Assembly (NCBI GenBank): GCA_021738625.1
Contig: JAIPBS010000004.1
Coordinates: 1-64,000, forward strand
Length of the DNA: 64,000 bases
DNA from: Bacteroidales bacterium
GTDB taxonomy: Bacteria; Bacteroidota; Bacteroidia; Bacteroidales; JAIOZK01
Direction: 5' to 3'
Both the position numbers and the translations under genes were made by a program. Below are positions 5,772-23,869 of this stretch, one piece after another (the stretch's first letter is position 1; the number at the start of each line of letters is the position of its first letter). The notes beneath the pieces were generated by a model. That model ran no database searches, was not told the DNA's origin, and saw nothing but the letters and a program-made list of their open reading frames with translations.

Positions 5772-6791
5772 ATGAAAGTTAACCCTGTTTTTTTTGGCGT
5801 ATTTGTATTGGGGATGCTATTGGTAAATACAAAAGCGAATTCGCAGCAGAATGTCTTTGATAGTTTGTTTGCAAAGGTTGACAGCCTTGCGAAGAATGGA
5901 CTGTATTATGAGGCACTTGGTCTGATCACCGGTCTACAACCCCAATATGCAGACAATTGGTTTGAGCTTTCAAAAGAGAAAATATATCTCAACGAGAAGC
6001 TGGGCCATAATGAAGAAAATCTCACAATTTTCAGGAACGGGCACCAAAAGGGATGGTTTTATTTTATCCATCCTGCATTGGCAAAGTATGATCCTTACAA
6101 AGAACTGCCGGGTTTTGATTCCATAGCATGGAAAGACATGGAGTTAAGGGAAGCGGCTTTAATTGATTCCCGAACCATTTATGAAGTAGAGCAGCCGTGC
6201 AATTGTTGCATGGGCAAAAGTCATCCTGTAATGCTGATTTTCCATGGGGGTGGCAGTAACCTGGCCAGGGTGAAAGAACACTGGCATTCGCCCATTTTGG
6301 ATTCATGCTTTATCAATATTTATTTGCAGTCATACAGGCATTATGATTCACAAACTTATGGGTGGCGCTCCGGCGATCCCCGGGCTGATGAGGACATTAG
6401 GAATATACTAAGAGATGTAATACAGAAATATGATGTTGATACCAATGCCATTTACCTATCGGGGATTTCGGCAGGTGGGACATATGCGCTTGATATTCTG
6501 CTTCGAAATGTAATGCCGGCAAAGGGTGGACTGCTGTTTTGCCCGGGTATGCCCTATCAGTTCGAAGAATTGTATAAAAATGAAAAGCTTAATTTTGACT
6601 TCACGCTATATATGGTGGGCGGTGAATATGATTTTTATCTTGAAAAACAGAAAATGATGCTTCCTGTTTTCAAAGAAGCAAAACTACATTACCTGCATGT
6701 TATCGTGCCAGGTTTGGATCACCGGTACCCACCGGATGAAGACTATTATATTGATGAAGCCTTGAAGTATTTTTTTAATCAATCACCATGA
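5772..6791 (+). CDS. Exported alpha/beta-hydrolase (esterase/PHB-depolymerase-like)
   Basis: The 339-residue protein has an N-terminal signal peptide (cleavage likely near ANS/QQN) and about 110 residues of helical N-terminal region. An alpha/beta-hydrolase domain follows: oxyanion-hole motif LIFHGGG (His158), nucleophile elbow GISAGG (Ser233) and a C-terminal acid/His pair in GLDHRYPP (His317). The pattern is that of secreted esterases related to polyhydroxybutyrate depolymerase and feruloyl esterase families. A CNCC cluster just before the first strand is unusual. The stop overlaps the start of the C45 gene by 4 nt, so the two are co-translated. Substrate unknown; cleavage of an ester- or thioester-linked acyl group is possible. 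Confidence 0.8.
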   Translation: MKVNPVFFGVFVLGMLLVNTKANSQQNVFDSLFAKVDSLAKNGLYYEALGLITGLQPQYADNWFELSKEKIYLNEKLGHNEENLTIFRNGHQKGWFYFIHPALAKYDPYKELPGFDSIAWKDMELREAALIDSRTIYEVEQPCNCCMGKSHPVMLIFHGGGSNLARVKEHWHSPILDSCFINIYLQSYRHYDSQTYGWRSGDPRADEDIRNILRDVIQKYDVDTNAIYLSGISAGGTYALDILLRNVMPAKGGLLFCPGMPYQFEELYKNEKLNFDFTLYMVGGEYDFYLEKQKMMLPVFKEAKLHYLHVIVPGLDHRYPPDEDYYIDEALKYFFNQSP

Positions 6792-7939
6792 AAGGAAAAT
6801 TATATTTACTGATCGTATTGTCGCTGTTGCTTTTTGCCTGCAATCCCGAGAGCTATATTGATAAAAGAAATAATCTTACAATTTTGCACTTATTTGGGAG
6901 CCCTTATGAACGGGGCTTCGACCATGGCAAATTGTTAAAGCCACAAATTGATTCCATCATCAAAAGATGGATGATTGAAGTTGAGAACACCTACCATCAG
7001 GATTTCGAGGGAGCTATAGAGGTTTTTTCTAACAATACCACTTTCAGAGATACCGTGGGTCGCTATCATCAAGAGATTATAGAGGAAATCGAAGGGATTG
7101 CTGATGGTAGTGGGCAGGCATACGAAACCATGTTGGCTTTTCAGATGAGTGAGGAAATTGAGGCTTTTGCGGAGGAGCTTGCCGAAGGACATTGCACCGC
7201 AATCAGCGTGAACAAAACAGATACGACTCCTACCATACTCGCACAGAATATGGATCCGCCACCATGGATGCATGGAGCCCCAACCTTACTGCACATCTAT
7301 GACGATGATAAGGAATTGTATGTTTATACTGTCCCTGGGTTTATCGGCCTAGACGGAATGAACTCGAAAGGCATTGGGATTGCCTTTAATGGCATTTCCA
7401 TGTTGAGTCACTCCAGGGAGGGATTGCCGGTTTCCTTTATTGTTAGAGGGGTGTTGGATTGCACATCCGAAGCTGCAGCATACAGATATATCGAGCAGGT
7501 ACCGATTGGCGTGCCACAGTGTTTTACTATTGGCGGTCCGAAAGAGGCCCGGTGTTATGAGTGTTCACCGAATGAAAAACAAATTTTTTATCCTTTTGAT
7601 GAAAAGAACATTAGCTTCCATACCAACTTCTCATTAGCCAATCGGGATTTCAACCAATACTATATAGATTTGTTAGCTGAATATGGACGCACGGTGGATG
7701 ACCCCTATTTTTGTCCGCGCTACTTTTTGTTATATGATAAAATTGAGGAATGCGATCGTCAATTAAATGCAGTAATGATTAAGGAATTACTGAGCCTGAC
7801 TGTACCAGAAATTCATCCCATATCCAATAACAATACCTACGGATGTCTTGTTATGGGGCTGTCTGAACACCCTGTACTGCATATCGCGGCGGGAAAACCG
7901 AACGAAACCGAATTTATCAGACTTTCCTTTGATGAATAA
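6788..7939 (+). CDS. C45-family acyltransferase/amidase lipoprotein (AAT-like Ntn hydrolase)
   Basis: The 383-residue product begins with a lipoprotein signal (lipobox LLFAC, lipidated Cys near residue 18). The family signature GSPYERGFDHGKLL matches the acyl-CoA:6-aminopenicillanate acyltransferase (PF03417, peptidase C45) N-terminal region. GHCTAIS provides the autoproteolytic Gly-Cys site, so Cys136 would become the N-terminal nucleophile of the beta chain; AQNMDPP corresponds to the family's N-x-D strand. Such enzymes hydrolyse or transfer acyl groups on amides. It overlaps the esterase gene upstream and precedes the solenoid gene by 5 nt. Lipidation places it at the periplasmic or outer-membrane surface. 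Physiological substrate unknown. Confidence 0.85.
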   Translation: MKGKLYLLIVLSLLLFACNPESYIDKRNNLTILHLFGSPYERGFDHGKLLKPQIDSIIKRWMIEVENTYHQDFEGAIEVFSNNTTFRDTVGRYHQEIIEEIEGIADGSGQAYETMLAFQMSEEIEAFAEELAEGHCTAISVNKTDTTPTILAQNMDPPPWMHGAPTLLHIYDDDKELYVYTVPGFIGLDGMNSKGIGIAFNGISMLSHSREGLPVSFIVRGVLDCTSEAAAYRYIEQVPIGVPQCFTIGGPKEARCYECSPNEKQIFYPFDEKNISFHTNFSLANRDFNQYYIDLLAEYGRTVDDPYFCPRYFLLYDKIEECDRQLNAVMIKELLSLTVPEIHPISNNNTYGCLVMGLSEHPVLHIAAGKPNETEFIRLSFDE

Positions 7940-7944
7940 TTGTA

Positions 7945-9888
7945 ATGAAATCACATTTTATACATATAGCATGTTTTTGTTTTGTGCTACTGGTTGATCC
8001 TTCCCTGGCTCAAAACAGAGCGAAAAATGATTCTTCCTTTCATGATTTTATCTCAGGTGAAAAATGGTTTTTTTGTGATTCATTGAAGAATTCAGGTATT
8101 GATGCAGAGGTGTTGACTGCATTCTCGGGAGCGGGTCATTTACCTGCCGGAATAAAGATTCTGTTTAGCAATCCAGGTCAAATACCCGAATTTAACTGGC
8201 ACATGGGGGAATTGTTCATTGCTTCAGCTGATCAACCATCCGGGCTATTTTATTTGGCGTACGGACTGTTAAGTATGTCTGCCGGAGGTTATGGCCCGCC
8301 CTTGAGTGGCGTAGCCCTGCCCTGGGAAAGAAATTTTTATGAATATGATGTTGATATGGTGGAGAAATTGATCAACGATGTTATAATTAAGATTGATAAC
8401 CATGACCTGACACAGTGGCGAAAGTTGCCTGATAAGCTGAAAAAATATATTTTACATTTGTTATTCAAGATGCATAGCTGTGCTGAGATGATTGCTGTTT
8501 ACCGGGAACCATTGCAGGATATAATAAGTGAAGTGGTTGAAGATGAAGGATTGTCTTTGATTCAGCGTCTTATGCGACCCTGGACCGAACGGCAGATGAT
8601 ATCATTTGAAAGTCTTGATTTAATAGATAAAGTTGATCAAAAAAAGCTTTCATTTTCAACCAGGTTGTTGATGGATGAATTTTCCCGACTGCCGAAAGAC
8701 CTGTTTATGTCGGTCGACAGTTCTTTTGAAGGCTGTTGTTTCGAAAGTGCTTGCGGCAGGGTTGCAATTACGGGTATTCAGGTTGATACCATACAAGGTG
8801 ATTATTGCCTGGTGTTGGATCTTGGTGGTAATGACCGCTACATTGGCAATATTGCCGCCTCCTCAGCGAACGTTCCTGTTAGCGTTCTAATAGACTTTCA
8901 GGGTGATGATACTTACCAAAGCGAAAATTCTCAGATCGCTTCGGGAATTGCCGGCATTGGAGCTTTACTGGATTTTGACGGAGACGATATATACTACTGC
9001 AGAAGCCATGGACTGGGATTCTCTATATTCGGTAGTTCAATTTTGTATGATTTCAAAGGGAATGATTTTTACAATAGTACTAAGGGTCATTCGCAAGCTT
9101 CGGCCTTTGTCGGGGCTGCGATGCTTATTGATAAATCGGGGGATGATATTTATTCCTGCTGCGCTTATTCTCAGGGTTTCGGTGGTTCATTGGGGGTAGG
9201 CGTATTCCTTGATTTAGAAGGAAATGACCATTACAATTGTGAACAGAGCCGGGGCGATCAACCTGCCTTTATACAGGGAGCCGGCTATGGCCGTTGTGCT
9301 GAAGCAACAGACGGTCACTCTCTGGCAGGTGGTTTTGGGATCTTTATTGAAGCCGATGGCGACGACAGCTATTTTGCAGGAAGTTTCGCACAGGGCGGCG
9401 CTTATTTTTTAGGTGCAGGTCTTTTTTATGAGAGATCAGGTGATGATACATACAACGCCCTGACACATAGCCAGGGGTATGCGGTACACAAGGGCCTGGC
9501 ATGTTTTATTGATCAAAAAGGTGATGATGTATACAATGCAGCCTGTGATCCCAGGAAAATGACCCAGGCCATCGGAGGTGGAAGGGACCATTCCGTGGGA
9601 TGGTTCCTGGAAGGGGCCGGGCAAGATACCTATCATTTCGGTAACAGAAGTGTAGGGGTTGGCGATATGAATGGCCTGGGTTTTTTTTGGGATTTCAGCG
9701 GCAGCGATCTCTATTACCATCATAATAATAACATTTACCGTAATGTTCCATCTATGGGTAAGTCATTTGACATTTTCAACGGAATGAAAACCGGATCCGG
9801 AATATACGGTAGGTTTGGATTAAGAAATCATGGAGTATTTTTGGATCAATCCGGTAACAATGCATTTTTCTCGAAAGATGAACCTTAA
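7945..9888 (+). CDS. Exported GDDxY-repeat solenoid protein, function unknown
   Basis: The 647-residue protein has a signal peptide (FCFVLLVDPSLAQ). A mostly helical domain spans about 30-285. From residue about 293 to the end there is a repeat region with at least eleven G(D/N)DxY motifs. The unit is about 26-40 residues: D-x-x-G-D-D-x-Y, about ten residues, S/A-Q-G, a Gly-rich stretch, then a hydrophobic strand L-x-D. This periodicity suggests a beta-solenoid with stacked Asp pairs, possibly binding metal. It is not the RTX nonapeptide GGxGxDxUx. The protein is cysteine-rich (GCCFESACG before the repeats, CCAY within). It lies between two Ntn-type amidase genes in one operon and overlaps the downstream one by 11 nt. 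No T9SS sorting domain is seen. Confidence 0.8.
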   Translation: MKSHFIHIACFCFVLLVDPSLAQNRAKNDSSFHDFISGEKWFFCDSLKNSGIDAEVLTAFSGAGHLPAGIKILFSNPGQIPEFNWHMGELFIASADQPSGLFYLAYGLLSMSAGGYGPPLSGVALPWERNFYEYDVDMVEKLINDVIIKIDNHDLTQWRKLPDKLKKYILHLLFKMHSCAEMIAVYREPLQDIISEVVEDEGLSLIQRLMRPWTERQMISFESLDLIDKVDQKKLSFSTRLLMDEFSRLPKDLFMSVDSSFEGCCFESACGRVAITGIQVDTIQGDYCLVLDLGGNDRYIGNIAASSANVPVSVLIDFQGDDTYQSENSQIASGIAGIGALLDFDGDDIYYCRSHGLGFSIFGSSILYDFKGNDFYNSTKGHSQASAFVGAAMLIDKSGDDIYSCCAYSQGFGGSLGVGVFLDLEGNDHYNCEQSRGDQPAFIQGAGYGRCAEATDGHSLAGGFGIFIEADGDDSYFAGSFAQGGAYFLGAGLFYERSGDDTYNALTHSQGYAVHKGLACFIDQKGDDVYNAACDPRKMTQAIGGGRDHSVGWFLEGAGQDTYHFGNRSVGVGDMNGLGFFWDFSGSDLYYHHNNNIYRNVPSMGKSFDIFNGMKTGSGIYGRFGLRNHGVFLDQSGNNAFFSKDEP

Positions 9889-10963
9889 ATCAACACTGGT
9901 ATTGTATGTACTTGCATTGCTCTTATGTTGGCATAAAACTCATGCATGCACGGTGTTTTGTCTGTCGGGCAAGCAATGCATTTTGGTGTCAAAGAATCTC
10001 GACTGGTACGCAGACCCAGGTATGATCATGCTGAATCATGCAGGTGTCCGAAAAGAAATTTTCGGTCTGGAGGGTAAAACTTTAAGTTGGGTATCCGATT
10101 ATCGGAGTGTTACATTCAATCATTTTGGAAAAGAATTTCCATTGGGGGGTATAAATCAGAATGGCCTTGTGGTTGAGGAGCTAAATTGCCCGGATTACGG
10201 ATTTAGCTCTGATCCCAGTAGGTTTTTGTCAAATGAATTTCAATTTGTGCAATACTTATTAGACAAATGTAGCAATGTGGAAGAGGTGTGTCAAAAAATC
10301 AATGGAATTCAGATTAAGCCACTGCTGGTTGCTTTGCATTATTTTGTCGCTGACCGGCATGGGAATATTGCTGTGATTGAACCCCGGAAAGATGGTTTTA
10401 TATGCTATAGCGGATCCGACCTTCCTTTAAAAGTACTAAGTAATAATAACTATCTGGAATCAATCCGGTACACCCGTAATTTTGCAGGATTTGGAGGGGA
10501 TTTACCTGTTCAAACAGAACGAAAGGGATCCAATGATCGGTTTGTTTCTGTATCAAGTTTAATAAAAGAAGCTCCTAACAAATGCTCTGTTGATTTTGCT
10601 CTTGCTCTTCTTGATACTGTGAGCCAAGAAGATACACGTTGGAGTATTGTGTATGATATTGTCGGGATGAAGATATATCTGAAATTTTACAATTGCTGTG
10701 ATTTAAAGACATTTGAGCTTGATGGTTTATTTTCAGATTCTTATCCGGATACCACCATCGGTTGCAGATTGGAAGATTGTTTTTGTATAAGATCGGATGA
10801 TTTTAAAATAATCACAACCAAAGAAAACAAAAACCTTATGAATGAAGTAATCAGCTTATTTCGTTCAAAAGCTATGCTTGAAGAAAAGCATCATCTCATG
10901 CGCGCAATGATCTTATTTGGAAACAAATTTTTGCCGACATCAACTGGCAACAACGATCGGTAA
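9878..10963 (+). CDS. Choloylglycine-hydrolase-like linear amide C-N hydrolase (Ntn)
   Basis: I place the start at the ATG at 9878, because a clean signal peptide (MNLKSTLVLYVLALLLC...THA) follows. The track start at 9830 would add 16 residues inside the preceding gene. Signal cleavage at THA/CTVF exposes a Cys as N-terminal nucleophile, the layout of exported penicillin V acylase/bile-salt-hydrolase relatives (PF02275, family C59). NLDWY follows, as in the family's RNxDW, but the usual Arg is Lys here. EELNCPDYGFSS matches the loop after the third strand. It would cleave linear amides in the periplasm or outside. Substrates in the family range from conjugated bile acids to acyl-homoserine lactones and beta-lactams, and none can be chosen from sequence. 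Last gene of the operon. Confidence 0.82.
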   Translation: MNLKSTLVLYVLALLLCWHKTHACTVFCLSGKQCILVSKNLDWYADPGMIMLNHAGVRKEIFGLEGKTLSWVSDYRSVTFNHFGKEFPLGGINQNGLVVEELNCPDYGFSSDPSRFLSNEFQFVQYLLDKCSNVEEVCQKINGIQIKPLLVALHYFVADRHGNIAVIEPRKDGFICYSGSDLPLKVLSNNNYLESIRYTRNFAGFGGDLPVQTERKGSNDRFVSVSSLIKEAPNKCSVDFALALLDTVSQEDTRWSIVYDIVGMKIYLKFYNCCDLKTFELDGLFSDSYPDTTIGCRLEDCFCIRSDDFKIITTKENKNLMNEVISLFRSKAMLEEKHHLMRAMILFGNKFLPTSTGNNDR

Positions 10964-11038: not shown

Positions 11039-13210
11039 TTATTTTTCAAAATTGTTCACTCTCTCAATCAGGTCCCGGTTTTGCTGCTGCAGTTCCCGGA
11101 TCATCTCCTGCTGCTCCTGCATGGCCTTCACCAGGTAGGGGATCATTTCGGTGGAGTAAATCCCTTTTTCACCACCTGCATTTTCTCCAACAAGTTCAGG
11201 TATTACAGCTTCCACTTCCTGTGCGATGAAACCAATTCCCTGCTTTCCGCTTTCTTTCCAGTCGAAGGTGACCGGCCTGAGTTGCATTACTTTGTCCAGG
11301 CTGGAGGAGAAGGTAATGATGTTTTCTTTGAGTCGCCTGTCGGAGGGATTGGTGTTGGTCAAAAAGCCCGAATTGGAATAAACTGTTCCGGTTGCAAGGT
11401 TATGCACCTTTACATCCCCGTCCGCCTGAACGGTCATCCTGATCAGGCTGTTGGTTCCAAATTGCAGGTCATTATTGGATTCATGCATAACATATAACGA
11501 ATTTACGTTGGCTCCGGAATAAAGATTATCCGTTTCGCCATTGAATCCGATTGCTCCTTTAAACAGCGTTCCATCCTGGCGAAATTCAAGCCTGGGGTTT
11601 TCATCTTCACCTCCGGTATTGTTATCGGTGTCTGCCTGGATGATCAGCATGGCGTCGGTTGTACTGGAAATATGCAAATGAGCTTCGGGTGAGGTGGTTC
11701 CGATGCCAACATTCCCATCCGGCTTCCATGTCATGCGTATGACTTCATTTCCTATCCATCCTTTTGTCCACAGGTGTAGCTTATTGCTTGAACCTGAATA
11801 CTGGAGTTCATACCCATAGTAATTGTTCGCTTCTTTTTCCAATAGTTGTATTGAAGCATTTTCTTCATCACCACCTGAGATTTTGAGAGATACATCCTCC
11901 GTATCCTGAATATGTAGTTTTTCTAAAGGGTTAGCGGTACCAATTCCCAATCTTTTGTTAAGCAGGTCGCCGTACAATATCTCAGGTCCCCCCAGCACCA
12001 TCTGATAGCTCCCATCGTTAACCGGAAGTTCCTGGTCAAAGCCCAGTACAATATTGTTGTGGCCAGAGCCCCAGATATTCCTGCCGGCGCCATATCCAAC
12101 AAATATGTTGTTGTAGCCCTGATTTTGGTTGTTGCCACCCCCCTGATAACCAGCACCTGAATTGGCTCCGATAGCTGTGTTTTTTATGCCATTGGTGTTG
12201 GAGGTTGAGTTGTTGTAGATTAAAGAATAGTAACCAACAGCAGTATTCAATGCCTGATAAGTAGTTCCGTTGTTTTCAAAATCCAGTTTTGATAATGCGT
12301 TGGTACCTACCGCGCAGTTATTTGAACTATTAGTGTTATTTGTAAGAGCCAGCGTTCCATAAGCTGTATTTCCATCGCCTTTATTGTTTTGTAAAACAAA
12401 TGCTCCGACTCCTGTATTGGCCTGCCCGGTTATTAGTTCATGCAGGCAATAAAAACCGATCCCTGTATTATAGTATCCTGTGGTGAGTTTCTGCAGGCTA
12501 TTGCATCCTAAAGCTGAGTTGTTGTAACCCTTTGTAAGTGAGTAGAGTGATTTTTCGCCAATACCTGTATTGGCAGCTCCTTCATGCATCTGAGTAGATT
12601 GTATGCTAAGATTCCCTGCATTTTTTCCAAGAAATGTGTTTTCGCGCCAAGCTCCATCCGGAACATAATTGTGGATAAACCTGGAAGCACCTTTATAAAT
12701 AACTCCCTCTGCATTAAGCGTATTCGGTATTTTGATTGAACCTGTTATCTCAAGTTGCTGGGTTGGATCATTGGTTCCTATCCCAATACAGCCATTATTT
12801 TCGATGGTTAATCTTTCTGAGTTTTGCGTGAAGAATCTTACATGATCTTCATCCCCGCTGGCCTCTACCTCAACTCTTGTGTCACCGTCGGCGTCGGCCA
12901 GTCGGGTAATGAGGGTGGAACTCAGCCTGATCCATTCCGCACCTGTGAAATAGTAAAAGCCGGCAGGGCTATCGGTTTGGTAAACAAGCAAGCCGGTTGC
13001 CGGGTTTGTGATGTTCCCGCGCTGGGTGGCATCCATACGGGGAATCAACAGTCCTCCGGTGGTGGATTTCACATCCAGCATGGCGGAGGCGTCGGGGGGA
13101 TCGCCGGTTTCATTTACGGCAACACCTTGTGAATACAGGTTAACAGATATGCAAATTAAAATGACTGCAAAAGCTGTATTGATCTTTTGGGGGTAATTCT
13201 GTGTTTTCAT
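11039..13210 (-). CDS. Secreted fibre-like protein with S74 intramolecular chaperone domain
   Basis: The 723-residue protein starts with a signal peptide (INTAFAVILICISVNLYSQG). The Bacteroidota surface-protein leader ASAMLDVKSTTGGLLIPRMD follows. The middle carries YadA/Hia-head-like repeats (NTGIGEKSLYSL, NSALGCNSLQKL, NTAYGTLALTNN) and several GIGTxxP beta-strand turns. The C-terminus holds a peptidase S74 domain: SDRRLKENI supplies the Ser and Lys (+5) of the autocleavage dyad, GFIAQEVEAVIPELV is the conserved helix, and a terminal coiled coil (EQQEMIRELQQQNRDL) favours trimerisation. In phage tailspikes this domain chaperones trimer folding and then cleaves itself off. By analogy this is a trimeric surface fibre. 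Three paralogues follow within 10 kb. Confidence 0.85.
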   Translation of the reverse strand: MKTQNYPQKINTAFAVILICISVNLYSQGVAVNETGDPPDASAMLDVKSTTGGLLIPRMDATQRGNITNPATGLLVYQTDSPAGFYYFTGAEWIRLSSTLITRLADADGDTRVEVEASGDEDHVRFFTQNSERLTIENNGCIGIGTNDPTQQLEITGSIKIPNTLNAEGVIYKGASRFIHNYVPDGAWRENTFLGKNAGNLSIQSTQMHEGAANTGIGEKSLYSLTKGYNNSALGCNSLQKLTTGYYNTGIGFYCLHELITGQANTGVGAFVLQNNKGDGNTAYGTLALTNNTNSSNNCAVGTNALSKLDFENNGTTYQALNTAVGYYSLIYNNSTSNTNGIKNTAIGANSGAGYQGGGNNQNQGYNNIFVGYGAGRNIWGSGHNNIVLGFDQELPVNDGSYQMVLGGPEILYGDLLNKRLGIGTANPLEKLHIQDTEDVSLKISGGDEENASIQLLEKEANNYYGYELQYSGSSNKLHLWTKGWIGNEVIRMTWKPDGNVGIGTTSPEAHLHISSTTDAMLIIQADTDNNTGGEDENPRLEFRQDGTLFKGAIGFNGETDNLYSGANVNSLYVMHESNNDLQFGTNSLIRMTVQADGDVKVHNLATGTVYSNSGFLTNTNPSDRRLKENIITFSSSLDKVMQLRPVTFDWKESGKQGIGFIAQEVEAVIPELVGENAGGEKGIYSTEMIPYLVKAMQEQQEMIRELQQQNRDLIERVNNFEK

Positions 13211-13428
13211 CGGTTTGTCTGTTATGAATGTATGATTGGTTTATTCTATAAATTAACTGGCATCTAAAAATAAACGTTTTTTGACTGTATTTCAGGTTTT
13301 TATGGCTTGAGTTAGCAAAAGGTAAAGTTGATAATATAAGAGGTTGATTTAGCGGGATGAGCGGCAATGAAAAAAGCTGTTATCGGAGCCTCCGGTTGTT
13401 TGATTTTAATTGGCTATACTAAAAAAAT

Positions 13429-13623
13429 CACTACTGTCCGGGGAAATTTTGGGAGATTCCTCGCTTCGCTCGGAATGACATGCTATTTGGGAGATACAAA
13501 GGGGGTTGGGGATAGTACGGCGGCAAAGCCGCCGTACTATCCCCAACCCCCTCCCAAGCCTCTGAAAGCACTGTCATTCCGAGCGAAGCGAGGAATCCCG
13601 TTGCGTTTAACCGGACAGTAGTG
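13429..13623 (+). mobile_element. MITE-like palindromic element, copy 1
   Basis: The 195-bp element has perfect 13-bp terminal inverted repeats (CACTACTGTCCGG / CCGGACAGTAGTG). Internal inverted arms carry GATTCCTCGCTTCGCTCGGA, and a central perfect palindrome runs through GGCGGCAAAGCCGCC. It is flanked by a perfect 9-bp direct repeat TAAAAAAAT (13420-13428 and 13624-13632), the expected target-site duplication. It has no coding capacity, so any transposase would act in trans. The arm sequence resembles dispersed CATTCCGAGCGAAGCGAGGAAT repeats common in this phylum. A second copy is at 19052-19243. Confidence 0.85.
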
Positions 13624-16243: not shown

Positions 16244-18889
16244 TCAATTCCCGCTACCTTCCAATTTCTCCATCCGTTTCAATAACTCCTCATTCATTTG
16301 CTGCATCTGCATTATGCTGTTTTGCTGGCTGTTAATGATCTCCTGCTGTTCCTGCATGGCTTTCACCAGGTAAGGGATCATCTCGGTGGTATATATTCCT
16401 TTGTATCCATCTGGGTTTTCCCCAACGAGTTCCGGTATAACAGCTTCCAGTTCCTGTGCAATAAAACCGATACCATGCTGACCGCCTTCCTTCCAGTTGA
16501 AGGTGACCGGCCTGAGTTGCATTACCTTATCAAGGCTGAGGGAGAAAGGGGTGATGTTTTCTTTGAGTCTTCTGTCGGAGGGGGCGGTGTTAGTCAGAAT
16601 GCCATTTACCGAATAAACCGTGCCCGAACCAAGATTATGTATTTTAACCCACCCGTCATAAGTCACAGTTAGTCTTACCGTATCGTTGGCACCAAGGTGT
16701 AAATTTGAATTATATTCATTCATCAAATATAAAGCATTTCCATTTGTCCCTTCATAAATTGAACCATCCAGACCAGTATATCCCAACGCCCCCTGAACTG
16801 TCCCGCCATCCTGTCTAAGCTCCAATCGTGGGTTGTCATCTTCACCGCTGTTATCAGTGTCAGCTTCCAAAATTAAACCTGCATCCAAAGTGTTTGCAAT
16901 ATGCAGTTGGGCCAGGGGAGTGGTTGTTCCCAGGCCAACATAACCGGTTTTAAGCCAACTCATCCTGATGTCTTCGTTACCGGTATAATTTCTTGACCAA
17001 AGATGAAGTTTGTCATTGCTGCCGTCATATTGAAATTCGAAACCGTAGTCACCGGATTCGAATAGTTTTAAAGAGGATGTGTCCGCACTGCCGGCGATGA
17101 TTTTTGCCGAGACGTTGTCCGTTCCGTGTACATGAAATTTGTCCGATGGAGTATCCGTACCGACCCCCACATATCCATCGTCATCTATTCGAATTCCTTT
17201 ATTCGTGCCACCTTTCACTGATAGTTGTATATAACCGTCGGCAATTAACCAACTTGACCAAGGGCTGTTGTGTCCTGCTTCATTTTTTCCGATATAAATG
17301 GATTTTGTTGAACTGCTGGCGAAAATATTCCCATCGCCGGAGGCAAACTTAATATCTCCATTTATAGTTAGTTCTTCAGTTGGAGCAGAAGTGCCGATTC
17401 CAACTTTAGCGTTCAGGAAGTTGACCTCGTCAGTGGCCTGGTCATCAAATTCGATCCTTCCGGCAGAAGCTCCTAATCCCAACCATTGATTATCGGCGGA
17501 AGCACCTGAGAACACACTTCCGGATGTCATAGAACCGACTGCGGTGATATCTCCTGTACCGCTCCAGCTAAGTACTCCCGAGCCATCTGTTGTCAGTACT
17601 TCACCGCTTGCACCATCATCAACAGGCAAGGTGTAGGTGATATCACCACTTTGATCACCTCCCTGGAATATGGTGTGATAGGTTGGGGAAGCACCGCCTT
17701 CAATGATGCCAAAATCACCGTTTAGGGTGAGTTTTTGGTTGGGGGTTATGGTACCTACTCCCACTCTTTTATTTAGCAGGTCGCCATATATAACATTCTG
17801 GTCACCTAAAACCATTTGGTAATTGCCATCAGCATCAGGCAGGTCTTTGTCATACCCTAATACTATATTGTTGTGAGCGGTCCCTTCAATATTAATCCCT
17901 GCAGCACATCCAAGAAATATATTGTTATATCCCTGATTGTAATATCCTCCGTATCCAGCCATATATCCCAAAGCAGTATTGTTTATTCCGTTGGTATCCG
18001 AATTAGGATCTGTATAAAAAAGGCTGAGTGAACCAATGGCCGTATTACAAGCATGGTAATATTGTTCATTGTTATTGTAACCAAATGCTTTTAATGCACT
18101 CATCCCAAATGCACTATTATAACTACCATAGCTGGCAGATTTCAATGCCCATGCACCACAAGCAGTATTGCCACCTCCTCCTTTAATATTTCTCATACTA
18201 AAAAACCCTAAAGCAGTATTATATGATCCCGATGTAAGCCCCTGCAGGCAATTATATCCAATGCCCGTATTGTGATTTGCTGAAGTCATGGAAAGATTAC
18301 CTGCATTTAATCCCAGAAAAGTATTATTGCCATCTCCAATTGGTGGTTTGAAATTATGCAGAAATACCGAATTATCTTTATAGATTATTCCATTTGAATC
18401 AATTGTTGAACTAAGTGTAATTGAACCAGTTAATTCCAATTGTTTCCTGGGAGATGAGGTTCCGATCCCCACATTACCTGCAGTATCAATAATCATTCGC
18501 AGGGAATCCTTTACCTTAAAACGGATTTTGTCCTCATCAGCATTTTCCTCCACTAACACCTTTGTATCTCCATCTGCGTCTGCCAGTTGAGTGATGAGGG
18601 TAGTGCTGAGCATGATCCAGCCGGAGCCGGTATAATAGTAAAAACCCGCTGTGCCGTCGGTTTGGAATACCAGAAGTCCGGTTGCCGGATTTGAGATGGA
18701 AGCTCGCTGGACGGAATCCATTCGGGGGATCAGCAATCCTTTATTCGTTGAACTTACATCCAGCATGGCGGAAGCGTTAGCGGAATTTCCGCTTTCGTTG
18801 ATGGCCACGCCCTGGGCATTTCCTTCGAATGAATTGCTCATGATAAGCAAAGCCAGTAAGAAAAATCCCAATTGTTCTAATTTTTTCAT
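16244..18889 (-). CDS. Secreted fibre-like protein with S74 chaperone domain
   Basis: The 881-residue protein has a signal peptide (FFLLALLIMSNSFEGNAQG), the leader ASAMLDVSSTNKGLLIPRMD and YadA-like head repeats (NTGIGYNCLQGL, NTALGFFSMRNI). Modules ending in VGVGTDTPSDKFHVHG follow, then an intact S74 domain with the Ser/Lys motif SDRRLKENI and GIGFIAQELEAVIPELV, and a terminal coiled coil. Several blocks (for example SADTSSLKLFESGDYGFEFQ) are nearly identical, at nucleotide level too, to blocks in the 1406-residue neighbour. That points to recent duplication or gene conversion. Outer-membrane or extracellular location is expected, but the attachment mechanism is not evident because no T9SS sorting domain is seen. 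Confidence 0.85.
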   Translation of the reverse strand: MKKLEQLGFFLLALLIMSNSFEGNAQGVAINESGNSANASAMLDVSSTNKGLLIPRMDSVQRASISNPATGLLVFQTDGTAGFYYYTGSGWIMLSTTLITQLADADGDTKVLVEENADEDKIRFKVKDSLRMIIDTAGNVGIGTSSPRKQLELTGSITLSSTIDSNGIIYKDNSVFLHNFKPPIGDGNNTFLGLNAGNLSMTSANHNTGIGYNCLQGLTSGSYNTALGFFSMRNIKGGGGNTACGAWALKSASYGSYNSAFGMSALKAFGYNNNEQYYHACNTAIGSLSLFYTDPNSDTNGINNTALGYMAGYGGYYNQGYNNIFLGCAAGINIEGTAHNNIVLGYDKDLPDADGNYQMVLGDQNVIYGDLLNKRVGVGTITPNQKLTLNGDFGIIEGGASPTYHTIFQGGDQSGDITYTLPVDDGASGEVLTTDGSGVLSWSGTGDITAVGSMTSGSVFSGASADNQWLGLGASAGRIEFDDQATDEVNFLNAKVGIGTSAPTEELTINGDIKFASGDGNIFASSSTKSIYIGKNEAGHNSPWSSWLIADGYIQLSVKGGTNKGIRIDDDGYVGVGTDTPSDKFHVHGTDNVSAKIIAGSADTSSLKLFESGDYGFEFQYDGSNDKLHLWSRNYTGNEDIRMSWLKTGYVGLGTTTPLAQLHIANTLDAGLILEADTDNSGEDDNPRLELRQDGGTVQGALGYTGLDGSIYEGTNGNALYLMNEYNSNLHLGANDTVRLTVTYDGWVKIHNLGSGTVYSVNGILTNTAPSDRRLKENITPFSLSLDKVMQLRPVTFNWKEGGQHGIGFIAQELEAVIPELVGENPDGYKGIYTTEMIPYLVKAMQEQQEIINSQQNSIMQMQQMNEELLKRMEKLEGSGN

Positions 18890-19301
18890 GATCCTGGGTG
18901 TTTATGTTTTATTGAAAAATATTTGGTTTTTGCCTGGGAAAACAGCCCTGCGATGCTTTCAAAGAAAGATTCTTTTGAAGGGGAGTTCATGATGATTGAT
19001 TTTGATGGGTTAAATATAATAAATGAAGCTGCTCTTGTCAATAAATGAAATCACTACTGTCCGGTTAAACGCAATGGGATTCCTCGCTTCGCTCGGAATG
19101 ACATGCTATTTGGGAGATACAAAGGGGGTTGGGGGTAGTACGGCGGCAAAGCCGCCGTACTACCCCCAACCCCCTCCAAAGCCTCTGAAAACACTGTCAT
19201 TCCGAGCGAAACGAGGAATCTCCCCAAATTTCCCCGGTCAGTGAAATTAAATCTCATTTTTCTGATTATTATATTTGTAATTGTTTTGTAATGATTGGAA
19301 A
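18890..19301. other. Intergenic region holding MITE copy 2
   Basis: This 412-bp gap separates two minus-strand fibre genes. Its left part is the presumptive promoter of the 881-residue gene. The right half is occupied by the second MITE-like element (19052-19243). ORFs at 19023-19244 and 19054-19257 are translations of that palindrome. Confidence 0.7.
19052..19243 (+). mobile_element. MITE-like palindromic element, copy 2
   Basis: The 192-bp element shares the left terminus CACTACTGTCCGG and the full palindromic core with copy 1; the right terminus is eroded (CCGGTCAGTG). Flanks AAATGAAAT (19043-19051) and AAATTAAAT (19244-19252) match at 8 of 9 positions, consistent with an aged 9-bp target duplication. 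The outer arms are exchanged relative to the core when compared with copy 1. Confidence 0.8.
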
Positions 19302-22300
19302 CTAACGTTTTTCCAAATTGCTCAGTTTCTTCATCAATTCCAGATTTTGTTTTTGCAGCTCACGGATCATCTCCCCTTGCTCTTGTATGTCGGTCTTGTA
19401 TATTTGCAACTCTTTAATGATCTCCTGCTGTTCCTGCATGGCTTTCACCAGGTAAGGGATGATCTCGGTGGTATATATTCCTTTATAACCATCTGAGTTT
19501 TCCCCAACGAGTTCCGGTATAACAGCTTCCAGTTCCTGTGCAATAAAACCGATACCCTGCTGACCGCCTTCCTTCCAGTTGAAGGTGACCGGCCTGAGTT
19601 GCATTACCTTATCCAGGCTGGGGGAGAAGGGGGTGATGTTTTCTTTGAGTCGTCTGTCGGAGGAAGCTGAGTTGGATAAGATACCATTATTGGAATAAAC
19701 TGTATTGGAGCCCAGGTTGTTGATTTTGACATTTCCCCCGTCGTATATGGTTATGCATGGAGAACTGTTGGCGCCAAGGTACAATTCCGAATCGTATTCA
19801 TTCATCACATACATTGCATTGTCGCTGACTCCCGTATAAATGGCGTCATTATCACCACTAAACCCAATTGCACCAGCAACGGCGCCCCCATCCTGTTTAA
19901 ATTCAATTCGGGGATTGTCATTTTCTCCGCTATTGTCTGTGTCCGCCTCCAGAATCAGGCCTGCATCCTGGGAGTTTGCAATATGCATTTGGGCCAGGGG
20001 AGTGCTTGTTCCCAGGCCAACATAACCGGTTTTAAGCCAACTCATCCTGATGTCTTCGTTACCGGTATAATTTCTTGACCAAAGATGAAGTTTGTCATTG
20101 CTGCCGTCATATTGAAATTCGAATCCGTAGTCACCGGATTCGAATAGTTTTATAGAGGATGTGTCGGCACTGCCGGCGATGATTTTTGCCGAGACATTGT
20201 CCGTTCCTTGTACATGAAATTTGTCCGATGGAGTATCCGTACCGACCCCCACATAACCTGCGTCATTTATCCGAATCCCTTTATCGGTTCCGCCATCCAC
20301 GGAAAGCTGCACATAACTGTCGGCTATTAGCCATGATGCATAAGGACTGTCGTGACCGGCATCATTTTTCCCAATAAATATAGATTTAGAAGAACTGCCA
20401 GCGAAAATATTCCCATCACCGGAGGCAAATTTAATATCTCCATTTACAGTTAATTCTTCAGTTGGAGTGGAAGTGCCGATCCCAACCCTGGCATTTAAGA
20501 TGTTGACCTCGTCAGTGGCCTGGTCATCAAATTCGATCCTTCCGGCGGAAACTCCTAATCCCAACCATTGATCATCGGCGGAAGTACCTGAGAACACACT
20601 TCCCGAGGTCATCGATCCGACTGCGGTAATATCTCCTGTGCTGTTCCAGCCAAGTACTCCTGAGCCATCCGTTGTAAGTACCTCTCCGCTTGTTCCATCA
20701 TCTGTGGGCAAGGTGTAGGTGATATCACCACTTTGATCGCCTCCCTGGAATATGGTATGATAGGTTGGGGAAGCACCGCCTTCAATGATCCCAAAATCTC
20801 CGTTGAGGGTAAGTTTTTGATTTGGGGTTGTTGTGCCTATTCCGATATTACCATCTGTATAAATTATCATAGCTTCAGATCCATCCACATCAAAACGGAT
20901 CCTGTCTTCATCCGCACTTTCTTCCACCATTATTTTTGTGTCATGGTCCGTATCATGAATGCTGCTAAGCGTAGTTTGAACAAAGCTGCCATCAAGCGGG
21001 TCAATACTTATATTGTTGTAACAACTTAGTTTGATTATCTTGAGATCATTACTAGTATAACTTCCTACATAGGCATAATTGCCAGAAATGGCTACTGATA
21101 AAGAACTATTTATTCCAATGCTCCCAGAGAGAACTAGGCTTGCCGGATTGTTCACATTAATTACCTTAAGATCATCACTACCGTAATCCACTACATAAGC
21201 ATAATTACCTGAGACGGCTACTGATGAAGGAACCGGCCCTATCCCATAACTGCCTGAAAGAACCGGGCTTGCTGGATTGCTCACATCAATTACCTTAAGA
21301 TCATCGCTGCCCTGATCTACTACATATGCATAATCACCTAGAACAGCAACAGACATGGGAATTGATCCTATTCCCAGGCTGCCTGAAAGAACCGGGCTTG
21401 CCGGGATGCTCACATCAATTACCTTAAGATCATCGCTGCCCTGATCTACTATATATGCATGATTATCCGTAACATCAACAGCATAGGGATTTGATCCTAC
21501 TCCCAGACCACCTGATAGTGAGGGGCTTACAGGATTGCTCACATCAATTACCTTAAGATCATCACTGCTGTAATCAACTATATATGCATAAGTACCCAAT
21601 ACTTTAACAGAATTGGGATGTCCTCCTATTCCCAGGCTGCCGGAAAGGACCGGACTAACCGGATTGCTTATATCAATTATTTTAAGATCATCGCTTCCAG
21701 CGTCAACCACATATGCATAATTACCCGAAACGGTAATAGACCTGGGATGCGTTCCTAATGGCAGGCTACTTGATAGTGCTGGGCTTGCCGGATTGCTCAC
21801 ATCAATTATTTTAAGATCATCGCTCTCAGAATCTACTATATAGGCATAATTATCCGAAACAAAAATTGATCTGGGAAATTCTCCTATCCCCAACTCCCCC
21901 TGAACGGATATGCAGGAGAAATCAGGACCGGGGAGGCTATCTCCAAACAGTGATAAAAGATCAAAATTTTGCCACTGGCCTTTGCCATTGGCATCGGATA
22001 CCAAAAGCCTGCCTTCTTCCTGGTTGCCATCGGAAATTTTTATATTGCCAACTAGATGAAGGGTTTCATCAGGGCTGGTTGTACCAATACCGACATTTCC
22101 GTTTTTAAGCCATGTCATCCGAATATCTTCTTTGCCTAGATATTTTCTGGACCACAAATCAAGTTTGTCATTACTGCCGTCATATTGAAATTCGAATCCA
22201 TAGTCGCCGGCTTCAAATAGTTTTAAAGAGGATGTGTCGGCACTGCCGGCGATGATTTTTGCCGAGACGTTGTCCGTTCCTTGTACATGAAATTTGTCCG

Positions 22301-23462
22301 ATGGTGAATTTGTACCGACCCCAACATAACCAGCGTCATTTATCCGGATTCCTTTATCAGTGCCGCCATCCACGGAAAGCTGTATATAGCTGTCTGCAAT
22401 TAACCAGCTTGAATAGGGACTATCGTGTCCGGCGGTGTTTTTGCCGATGAAGATCGAGTTAGAAGAGCCACTTGCAAAGATGTGGCCATCACCTGATGAT
22501 AATTTGATGTCGCCTGCGATGGTTAGCTCCTCATCCGGGTTTGTTGTACCTATTCCGATATACTTATTGGTCAGATCACCATAAAGAAGATCTGAAGCAC
22601 CTATGATTACCTGGTTGTCACCAGCTGCATTGGGTAAATCCAAATCATAACCAACAACAATATTGTTACTACCCGAAGTTATATTATAACCTGCTTCATG
22701 ACCTATAAAAATATTATTGGTGCCCAGATTTGTTCCAACATAACCATGGCCTGCACTACTACCAATTGCTATATTATTGATGCCATTCGATGAATTTGAC
22801 GAGTTAAGATTTTGTAATGAATGTGAACCAATAGCAATGTTATATCCATAGTATTGTGTTCCGCTATTAGTAAAATCTATCTTGCCAAGTGCATAGGTAC
22901 CTATAGCAATATTATTACCTGAATTGGTGTTGCTTTCTAATGCTGAACTTCCAATGGAAATATTATATGCTCCATTATTGTTATGCAGTAACGATTTGAA
23001 ACCAATAGCAGTATTTCCATAGGCTAAATTATTTTTTAAAGCCAAATAGCCAATAGCTACATTATTCCCTTGTGAGGTTAAACTATTGAGTGCCTGATAA
23101 CCAACTCCTACATTATTAATACCAATAGTACAGGAAGTACCTGCATCCTCCCCTGCAAAAATGTTTGTTCCTGGGGTATTAATTATACCCTCATCAATTA
23201 TTTCTAACCAGTTAGCAGAATGATAAATATAAATAGATTCATTATCCGTATCATAAACCATCAACCCATCCGCAGGAGAGGCTATTGCCGTGCGCTGGGC
23301 TGTTGTCAACCTAGGAATTAACATGCCCTTTGTGTTGGATTTCACATCAAGCATGGCACTTGAATTGGGTGAATAATTGGCGTCATCGGTTATGGCCACG
23401 CTCTGGCCAACTGCGGCTGAACATATCATCAGGGCAGCCAACAAAAAAGTCAGTTTTTTCAT
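19302..23462 (-). CDS. Giant fibre-like protein: S74 domain with an inserted seven-unit LVIVD propeller
   Basis: I start the gene at 23462 (MKKLTFLLAALMICSAAVGQ, a good signal peptide); the track's 20 extra residues look untranslated. The product is about 1386 residues. In order: leader SSAMLDVKSNTKGMLIPRL; YadA-like head repeats to about residue 250; a DEELTIAGDIKL module; seven LVIVD repeats (about 520-810; units such as GNYAYVVDYGSDDLKVI), enough for one closed beta-propeller; a second copy of the earlier module; an S74 domain with SDRRLKENI; and a terminal coiled coil. LVIVD propellers are known from choice-of-anchor-type surface proteins. The duplicated modules before and after the propeller suggest it was inserted during a tandem duplication. 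An 8-bp tandem array lies about 100 bp upstream. Confidence 0.85.
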   Translation of the reverse strand: MKKLTFLLAALMICSAAVGQSVAITDDANYSPNSSAMLDVKSNTKGMLIPRLTTAQRTAIASPADGLMVYDTDNESIYIYHSANWLEIIDEGIINTPGTNIFAGEDAGTSCTIGINNVGVGYQALNSLTSQGNNVAIGYLALKNNLAYGNTAIGFKSLLHNNNGAYNISIGSSALESNTNSGNNIAIGTYALGKIDFTNSGTQYYGYNIAIGSHSLQNLNSSNSSNGINNIAIGSSAGHGYVGTNLGTNNIFIGHEAGYNITSGSNNIVVGYDLDLPNAAGDNQVIIGASDLLYGDLTNKYIGIGTTNPDEELTIAGDIKLSSGDGHIFASGSSNSIFIGKNTAGHDSPYSSWLIADSYIQLSVDGGTDKGIRINDAGYVGVGTNSPSDKFHVQGTDNVSAKIIAGSADTSSLKLFEAGDYGFEFQYDGSNDKLDLWSRKYLGKEDIRMTWLKNGNVGIGTTSPDETLHLVGNIKISDGNQEEGRLLVSDANGKGQWQNFDLLSLFGDSLPGPDFSCISVQGELGIGEFPRSIFVSDNYAYIVDSESDDLKIIDVSNPASPALSSSLPLGTHPRSITVSGNYAYVVDAGSDDLKIIDISNPVSPVLSGSLGIGGHPNSVKVLGTYAYIVDYSSDDLKVIDVSNPVSPSLSGGLGVGSNPYAVDVTDNHAYIVDQGSDDLKVIDVSIPASPVLSGSLGIGSIPMSVAVLGDYAYVVDQGSDDLKVIDVSNPASPVLSGSYGIGPVPSSVAVSGNYAYVVDYGSDDLKVINVNNPASLVLSGSIGINSSLSVAISGNYAYVGSYTSNDLKIIKLSCYNNISIDPLDGSFVQTTLSSIHDTDHDTKIMVEESADEDRIRFDVDGSEAMIIYTDGNIGIGTTTPNQKLTLNGDFGIIEGGASPTYHTIFQGGDQSGDITYTLPTDDGTSGEVLTTDGSGVLGWNSTGDITAVGSMTSGSVFSGTSADDQWLGLGVSAGRIEFDDQATDEVNILNARVGIGTSTPTEELTVNGDIKFASGDGNIFAGSSSKSIFIGKNDAGHDSPYASWLIADSYVQLSVDGGTDKGIRINDAGYVGVGTDTPSDKFHVQGTDNVSAKIIAGSADTSSIKLFESGDYGFEFQYDGSNDKLHLWSRNYTGNEDIRMSWLKTGYVGLGTSTPLAQMHIANSQDAGLILEADTDNSGENDNPRIEFKQDGGAVAGAIGFSGDNDAIYTGVSDNAMYVMNEYDSELYLGANSSPCITIYDGGNVKINNLGSNTVYSNNGILSNSASSDRRLKENITPFSPSLDKVMQLRPVTFNWKEGGQQGIGFIAQELEAVIPELVGENSDGYKGIYTTEIIPYLVKAMQEQQEIIKELQIYKTDIQEQGEMIRELQKQNLELMKKLSNLEKR

Positions 23463-23869
23463 ATTGTTTGGTTTTTGGGGTTTTTGGGTTTCGGGTGATA
23501 AATCTACCGCCCCCATCGGCAAAAGCCTGTCAGAAATGTTTCATTTTGTATAAGAAATGTTACATGGATTGTATGGATGTATGATTGTATGATTGTATGA
23601 TTGTATGATTGCATGATTGTATGATTGCATGATTTTATGATTGTATGATTGTATGATTGTATGATTGTATGATTGTATGATTGTATGATTGTATGGTTGT
23701 ATGATTGTATGGTTGTATGATTGTATGGAGGTATGATTGTATGGATGTATGATTGTATGGATGTATGATTGTATGGATGTATGATTGTATGATTGTCTTC
23801 CCTTATACCCTTATACCTTTATACCCTTATAATTTTGGTATTGGAGTGGTGGATTGGTGGGAGCTTGGC
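23463..23869. other. Intergenic region dominated by simple tandem repeats
   Basis: This 407-bp gap separates the start of the giant fibre gene from the 3' end of the hybrid regulator gene. It holds the 8-bp array (23563-23796). A short run of CCTTATAC-like repeats follows (about 23800-23830). No ORF of substance. The fibre gene's promoter must lie between the array and 23462, or within the array. Confidence 0.7.
23563..23796. repeat. 8-bp tandem array (ATGATTGT), about 29 units
   Basis: Consecutive units of consensus ATGATTGT run for about 234 bp. Variants (GGTTGTAT, GGAGGTAT, GGATGTAT, GCATGATT) are clustered toward the right end. The array lies upstream of the minus-strand giant fibre gene, about 100-330 bp before its ATG. 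Arrays of identical short units change length by slippage; whether this one affects transcription is unknown. Confidence 0.9.

Follow-up and report, generated by a model that had tools for sequence, protein, structure and literature searches.

The 1386-residue protein analysed in this study, which is encoded in a 64,000-nt window (the whole stretch of DNA examined, positions 1 to 64,000 of contig JAIPBS010000004.1 from a Bacteroidales bacterium), is likely to be a secreted, mosaic and trimeric surface adhesin fibre resembling the MAT proteins, in which a side-mounted propeller of LVIVD repeats would serve as the ligand-binding head.

Domain organization of the fibre protein

The gene lies on the minus strand, with its ATG at 23462 and its stop codon ending at 19302 (23462-19302; all features of this protein given below are on the same strand). 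Its ORF, translation and Pfam matches give, from the N- to the C-terminus, a signal peptide, an N-terminal domain, fibre modules, the LVIVD propeller, further fibre modules, a Peptidase_S74 (S74) domain and a helical tail. The probable Sec signal peptide, MKKLTFLLAALMICSAAVGQ (23403..23462), was read from the sequence and has no clear lipobox. It is followed by a shared N-terminal domain beginning SAMLDVKSNTKGMLIPRLT (23133..23402). No T9SS C-terminal domain was recognised by Pfam in the 1386-aa protein.

The fibre modules were compared using blastn against the window itself. An upstream copy (22099..22466) and a downstream copy (20026..20393) are 85% identical over 368 nt (84.8% before rounding), and a third copy, 94% identical to the second (20026-20393), is found in the neighbouring S74 gene (16921-17220). 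A preliminary description of this DNA had placed the propeller between two copies of one module; the copies are real, but they lie ~180 and ~610 nt away from it and do not directly abut it. A VGIGT-type loop motif, VGIGTTSPDETL (22059..22094), is one of six such motifs in the protein. In profile searches, the fibre half has matches to MAT fibres of known structure (8ond, E = 1.2e-7; 8ojn, 1.3e-4; 8ol4, 0.0034), which points to MAT-type fibre homology, and it also matches the phage fibres 6f45 and 8jov as well as phage tail-fibre PHROGs.

The S74 intramolecular chaperone domain (19506..19661), detected by Pfam and by a genome search, is in the same chain as the LVIVD repeats (PF13884, E = 7.8e-18, 65 bits against a cut-off of 22). 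It contains SDRRLK (residues 1268-1273, 19644..19661), which represents the SDxxxK catalytic motif with Ser1268 and Lys1273 (motif as in PMC10769870). The domain and its motif bear out the earlier assignment of this protein to the S74 fibre chains. Beyond the S74 core, a heptad-like helical tail could be read from the sequence (19305..19505) and is expected to be released together with the chaperone.

LVIVD repeats and the predicted propeller

Pfam identified seven LVIVD stretches (PF08309, E = 2.4e-53, 177.7 bits against a cut-off of 20.2) with unit starts spaced by 43, 43, 43, 43, 43 and 42 residues, in agreement with the initial observation of seven consecutive units of about 43 residues. 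Based on Pfam, repeat analysis, AlphaFold2 and Foldseek, the propeller covers residues 515-820 (21003..21920); it is indeed located in the span proposed before (21030-21905), with borders that proved slightly wider. Units 1-6 share a mean identity of 66% at the protein level and 72% at the DNA level, and unit 7 is diverged (26-38% identity). The repeat is more than chance, because the former values compare with an average of only 9% in residue shuffles (maximum of 1000 shuffles, 13%). The same DNA array was detected independently as a 129-nt tandem repeat at 21137-21861.

The history of the blades was examined by comparison with relatives. Blade i of the window protein is 57% identical to blade i of L087, its closest relative among the matches listed, and 56% identical to the other L087 blades. 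Descent of single blades by position was rejected, as blade-by-blade identity between the window protein and its relatives carries no positional signal; such a signal is present in one close Hymenobacter pair (76 vs 45%). Since the blades are alike within the protein and show no positional match to relatives, their pattern appears to fit repeated amplification from single blades. Growth of this kind has been documented for propellers generally (PMC9218822).

An AlphaFold2 model based on an 18-sequence alignment of the window protein and its relatives has a mean pLDDT of 84.5, with values >90 through the ring and <60 in the flanks of this monomer model. The predicted ring consists of 28 strands in seven groups of four, and the N-terminal strand (protein residues 519-525, model E30-36) completes blade 7 as its fourth strand. 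At E<0.001, Foldseek matched over 1000 chains of known structure. The best matches include solved seven-bladed propellers at 2-3 Å, among them beta-TrCP (2.3 Å over ~300 columns), G-protein beta and CIAO1, and most have an rmsd of 2-3 Å over at least 300 columns. When the propeller by itself was compared with solved structures at the sequence level, the match obtained was weak (3u4y, E = 0.057). The seven LVIVD units are thus confidently predicted to form a closed seven-bladed propeller, and the closure anticipated in the preliminary description agrees with both the monomer model and the Foldseek matches.

In a Bacteroidota subset, cysteines bracket the propeller, with DFSC just before the closing strand and LSC just after the last blade. 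According to the alignment with relatives and the AlphaFold2 model, Cys517 (21912..21914) of the window protein directly precedes the ring-closing strand and Cys814 (21021..21023) directly follows the last strand of blade 7, so that both positions are at the ends of the ring-closing strands. Among the 17 aligned sequences that include the N-terminal end, six have both cysteines and 11 have neither. As related sequences are not independent, this co-occurrence is no more than suggestive. L092, which is truncated at its N-terminal end, has the cysteine on the C-terminal side. In the modelled ring, a Cys517-Cys814 disulfide probably clamps the closure.

Distribution of the LVIVD and S74 combination

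Genes for S74 'tail fibres' are present in 34 of 60 sampled relatives, and LVIVD and S74 matches at the same place were found among these 60 only in the source genome. A 396-genome sample of the phylum, in which the best loci were examined, contained one genome with three LVIVD + S74 chains (Hymenobacter jeongseonensis). We also scanned one genome per species; the best 80 of 464 were retained and 78 loci were obtained, and the counts are therefore a lower bound. At least 14 further ORFs at 12 loci, including the three Hymenobacter proteins, have LVIVD and S74 in one chain, and both domains were confirmed by Pfam in all nine of the ORFs scanned. These loci belong to Bacteroidota, Acidobacteriota (Holophagae), Armatimonadota and Verrucomicrobiota. 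An architecture singular to this genome is ruled out by these additional ORFs in four phyla, and the idea of an unusual domain combination, put forward when the DNA was first described, finds no support in that form. None of the papers found describes LVIVD with S74; the architecture is recurrent but apparently undescribed.

The H. jeongseonensis proteins L100 and L123 and the Bacteroidota MAG proteins L089, L091 and L105 have the same order as the window protein, that is, fibre module, propeller, fibre and S74. The Hymenobacter members differ from it in having no cysteine pair, and L100 and L105 carry added collagen-like repeats, unlike the window protein. L087 shares its propeller, flanks and cysteines with the window protein and has no Pfam S74 match; therefore, the propeller does not depend on S74. 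A weak Peptidase_G2 match, below the cut-off, was observed near the C-terminus of this protein (L087:870-5219), which may reflect the replacement of one self-cleaving domain by another. In addition, many proteins with an LVIVD propeller come from Chlamydiae MAGs, almost all of them of isolate K940_chlam_7 (L118, L120, L122, L133, L134, L138, L148, L150, L156, L161 and L164, and also L142), and this set is a family expansion.

Several Bacteroidota members have a module ending like GKILTSDA-G-G-WQ, then the propeller and then a stretch like ITIDP-TG-F. The propeller of the window protein is inserted after a module ending SDANGKGQWQ, and a similar arrangement is seen in Hymenobacter, with RLPVVLPDGTLGVN before the propeller and VAVNADGSL after it. 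The propeller is located at a recurrent fibre site in Bacteroidota.

Fibre repertoire and proposed role of the propeller

The source genome contains six S74 matches and 23 matches to the N-terminal domain, which is joined to S74 or Fib_succ_major tips in the chains checked. Two S74 fibre paralogues lie on the minus strand near the propeller-fibre gene: one of 881 aa (16244..18889), which has no propeller and is 78% identical to residues 858-1384, and one of 723 aa (11039..13210), identified by the genome search. Because the N-terminal domain is joined to differing tips in the chains checked, the genome is considered, on its sequence, to hold a repertoire of mosaic fibres broadly comparable to MAT. 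Elsewhere in this genome (G000:C15, ~72-79 kb), the genes L189, L190 and L197 form a fibre-like cluster with the shared N-terminal domain; two of the proteins end in Fib_succ_major, and some carry a second copy of the N-terminal domain further along the chain.

The examined neighbours of the gene encode a hybrid two-component sensor, other fibres, amide hydrolases, a glycosyltransferase and FtsK. Two of them, at 6788-7939 and 9830-10963, are N-terminal-nucleophile amide hydrolases (AAT-type and choloylglycine hydrolase-type) located close together near the fibre genes. An octanucleotide array of ~29 copies (23567-23796, unit ATACAATC on the minus strand) and, beside it, four TATAAGGG-type units at 23800-23831 take up a large part of the sequence upstream of the propeller-fibre gene. 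A specific regulatory role of this array is unsupported, as shorter arrays of the ATACAATC unit are present at more than a dozen further sites and the unit is thus a genome-wide repeat. The S74 fibre genes are also flanked by two copies of a 195-nt element, 88% identical to each other (13425-13619 and 19048-19242). The element contains a strong hairpin (CGGCGGC...GCCGCCG) as well as inverted arms similar to TCATTCCGAGCGAAGCGAGGAATC and is REP- or MITE-like.

In MAT proteins, which form fibres on the cell surface, a conserved base is combined with tips that can be exchanged, and some of these proteins end in S74 with SDxxxK; their conserved N-terminal domain (~130 aa) is beta-rich and has no PDB homologue (PMC10769870). 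The window protein shares with the MAT proteins of Bdellovibrio bacteriovorus (Bd3182 and Bd2133; PMC10769870) the signal peptide, an N-terminal domain found in many fibre genes per genome, the beta-rich fibre with VGIGT-like loops, interchangeable outer domains and, as in a subset of those proteins, S74 with SDxxxK. In contrast to them, it has a seven-bladed LVIVD propeller inside the stalk; the word 'propeller' is absent from the main text of PMC10769870. The window host is not a Bdellovibrio, and the likeness is drawn by fibre sequence. A MAT-like protein is the best reading of the matches in the fibre half and of a mosaic repertoire with a conserved N-terminal end, many members per genome and varied tips.

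Other known systems share parts of this organization. Phage tail fibres and tailspikes with S74 (6f45, 8jov; K1F endosialidase, T5 pb1) have S74, SDxxxK and a beta-rich stalk in common with the window protein, which differs from them in its signal peptide, cellular gene neighbourhood and internal LVIVD propeller. LVIVD-repeat proteins (PF08309) were initially recognised among the surface proteins of archaea and bacteria (PMC2447325); the repeat analysed here is like theirs in its 42-43-aa length, its seven units and its score above the Pfam cut-off, and differs in being inserted in an S74 fibre chain. The eCIS tail fibres (PMC12923769) likewise carry a propeller as an outward module on a fibre shaft, although their shaft is collagen, their attachment domains are different and they are fibres of contractile injection systems.

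From the named families, we infer that the fibre would be exported to the cell surface by its Sec-type signal peptide and would stand there by the conserved N-terminal domain, probably as an anchor, with a stalk of VGIGT-type beta modules. The S74 domain would template trimerisation and then cut itself off at Ser1268. In the propeller, the first strand is predicted to meet the last blade, and this meeting point would probably be pinned by the disulfide. As entry and exit of the chain lie at one point of the propeller, the domain could project sideways from the stalk. With three copies per trimer, the propellers would act as a head that binds a surface glycan or protein multivalently, and such a ligand-binding role may reasonably be assumed.

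Beta-propellers often act as interaction scaffolds, and the propeller might instead be a structural or protein-protein docking module that, for example, ties the fibres to another envelope protein. We regard this as an unlikely alternative that still deserves attention: WD40 scaffolds and BamB are among the Foldseek neighbours, and the propeller is inserted in mid-stalk and not at the tip, whereas other members of the fibre repertoire end in Fib_succ_major, which suggests that the outward-facing domains vary within this family. How the blades differ from each other does not discriminate between a binding head and a docking module. The close similarity of blades 1-6 (66% in protein, 72% in DNA) and the lack of blade-by-blade closeness to relatives (57 vs 56% for L087), which fits repeated re-amplification, could also be explained by a repeat that was amplified recently and is drifting, the fibre having no selected use for it. 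However, this is quite improbable: the window protein, L087, L089, L091 and the three Hymenobacter proteins all retain seven blades in an open frame, and different families have the cysteine bracket and the insertion site in common. The least probable reading is a prophage or phage tail fibre in place of a cellular adhesin. S74 and the stalk do strongly match phage tail-fibre families, and viral proteins with propellers exist, but the gene encodes a signal peptide, its examined neighbours are not phage genes, 23 matches to the N-terminal domain are present in the genome, and no propeller relatives were found in phage records or viral contigs.

The ligand-binding fibre remains our preferred reading. 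More broadly, and only tentatively, secreted trimeric fibres of a class not yet described may be common to Bacteroidota and several other phyla; in these, the propeller (disulfide-clamped in one subset) would be a standard plug-in head at a fixed stalk site, repeatedly re-amplified from single blades to retune binding. The recurrent insertion site and the cysteine bracket point to a natural solution for attaching a closed propeller to a trimeric stalk. The idea of MAT-type fibres, shown in a predatory bacterium, would be extended towards a large phylum in which S74 'tail fibre' genes are mostly unexplained, and the LVIVD propeller may provide a concrete head domain for such fibres.
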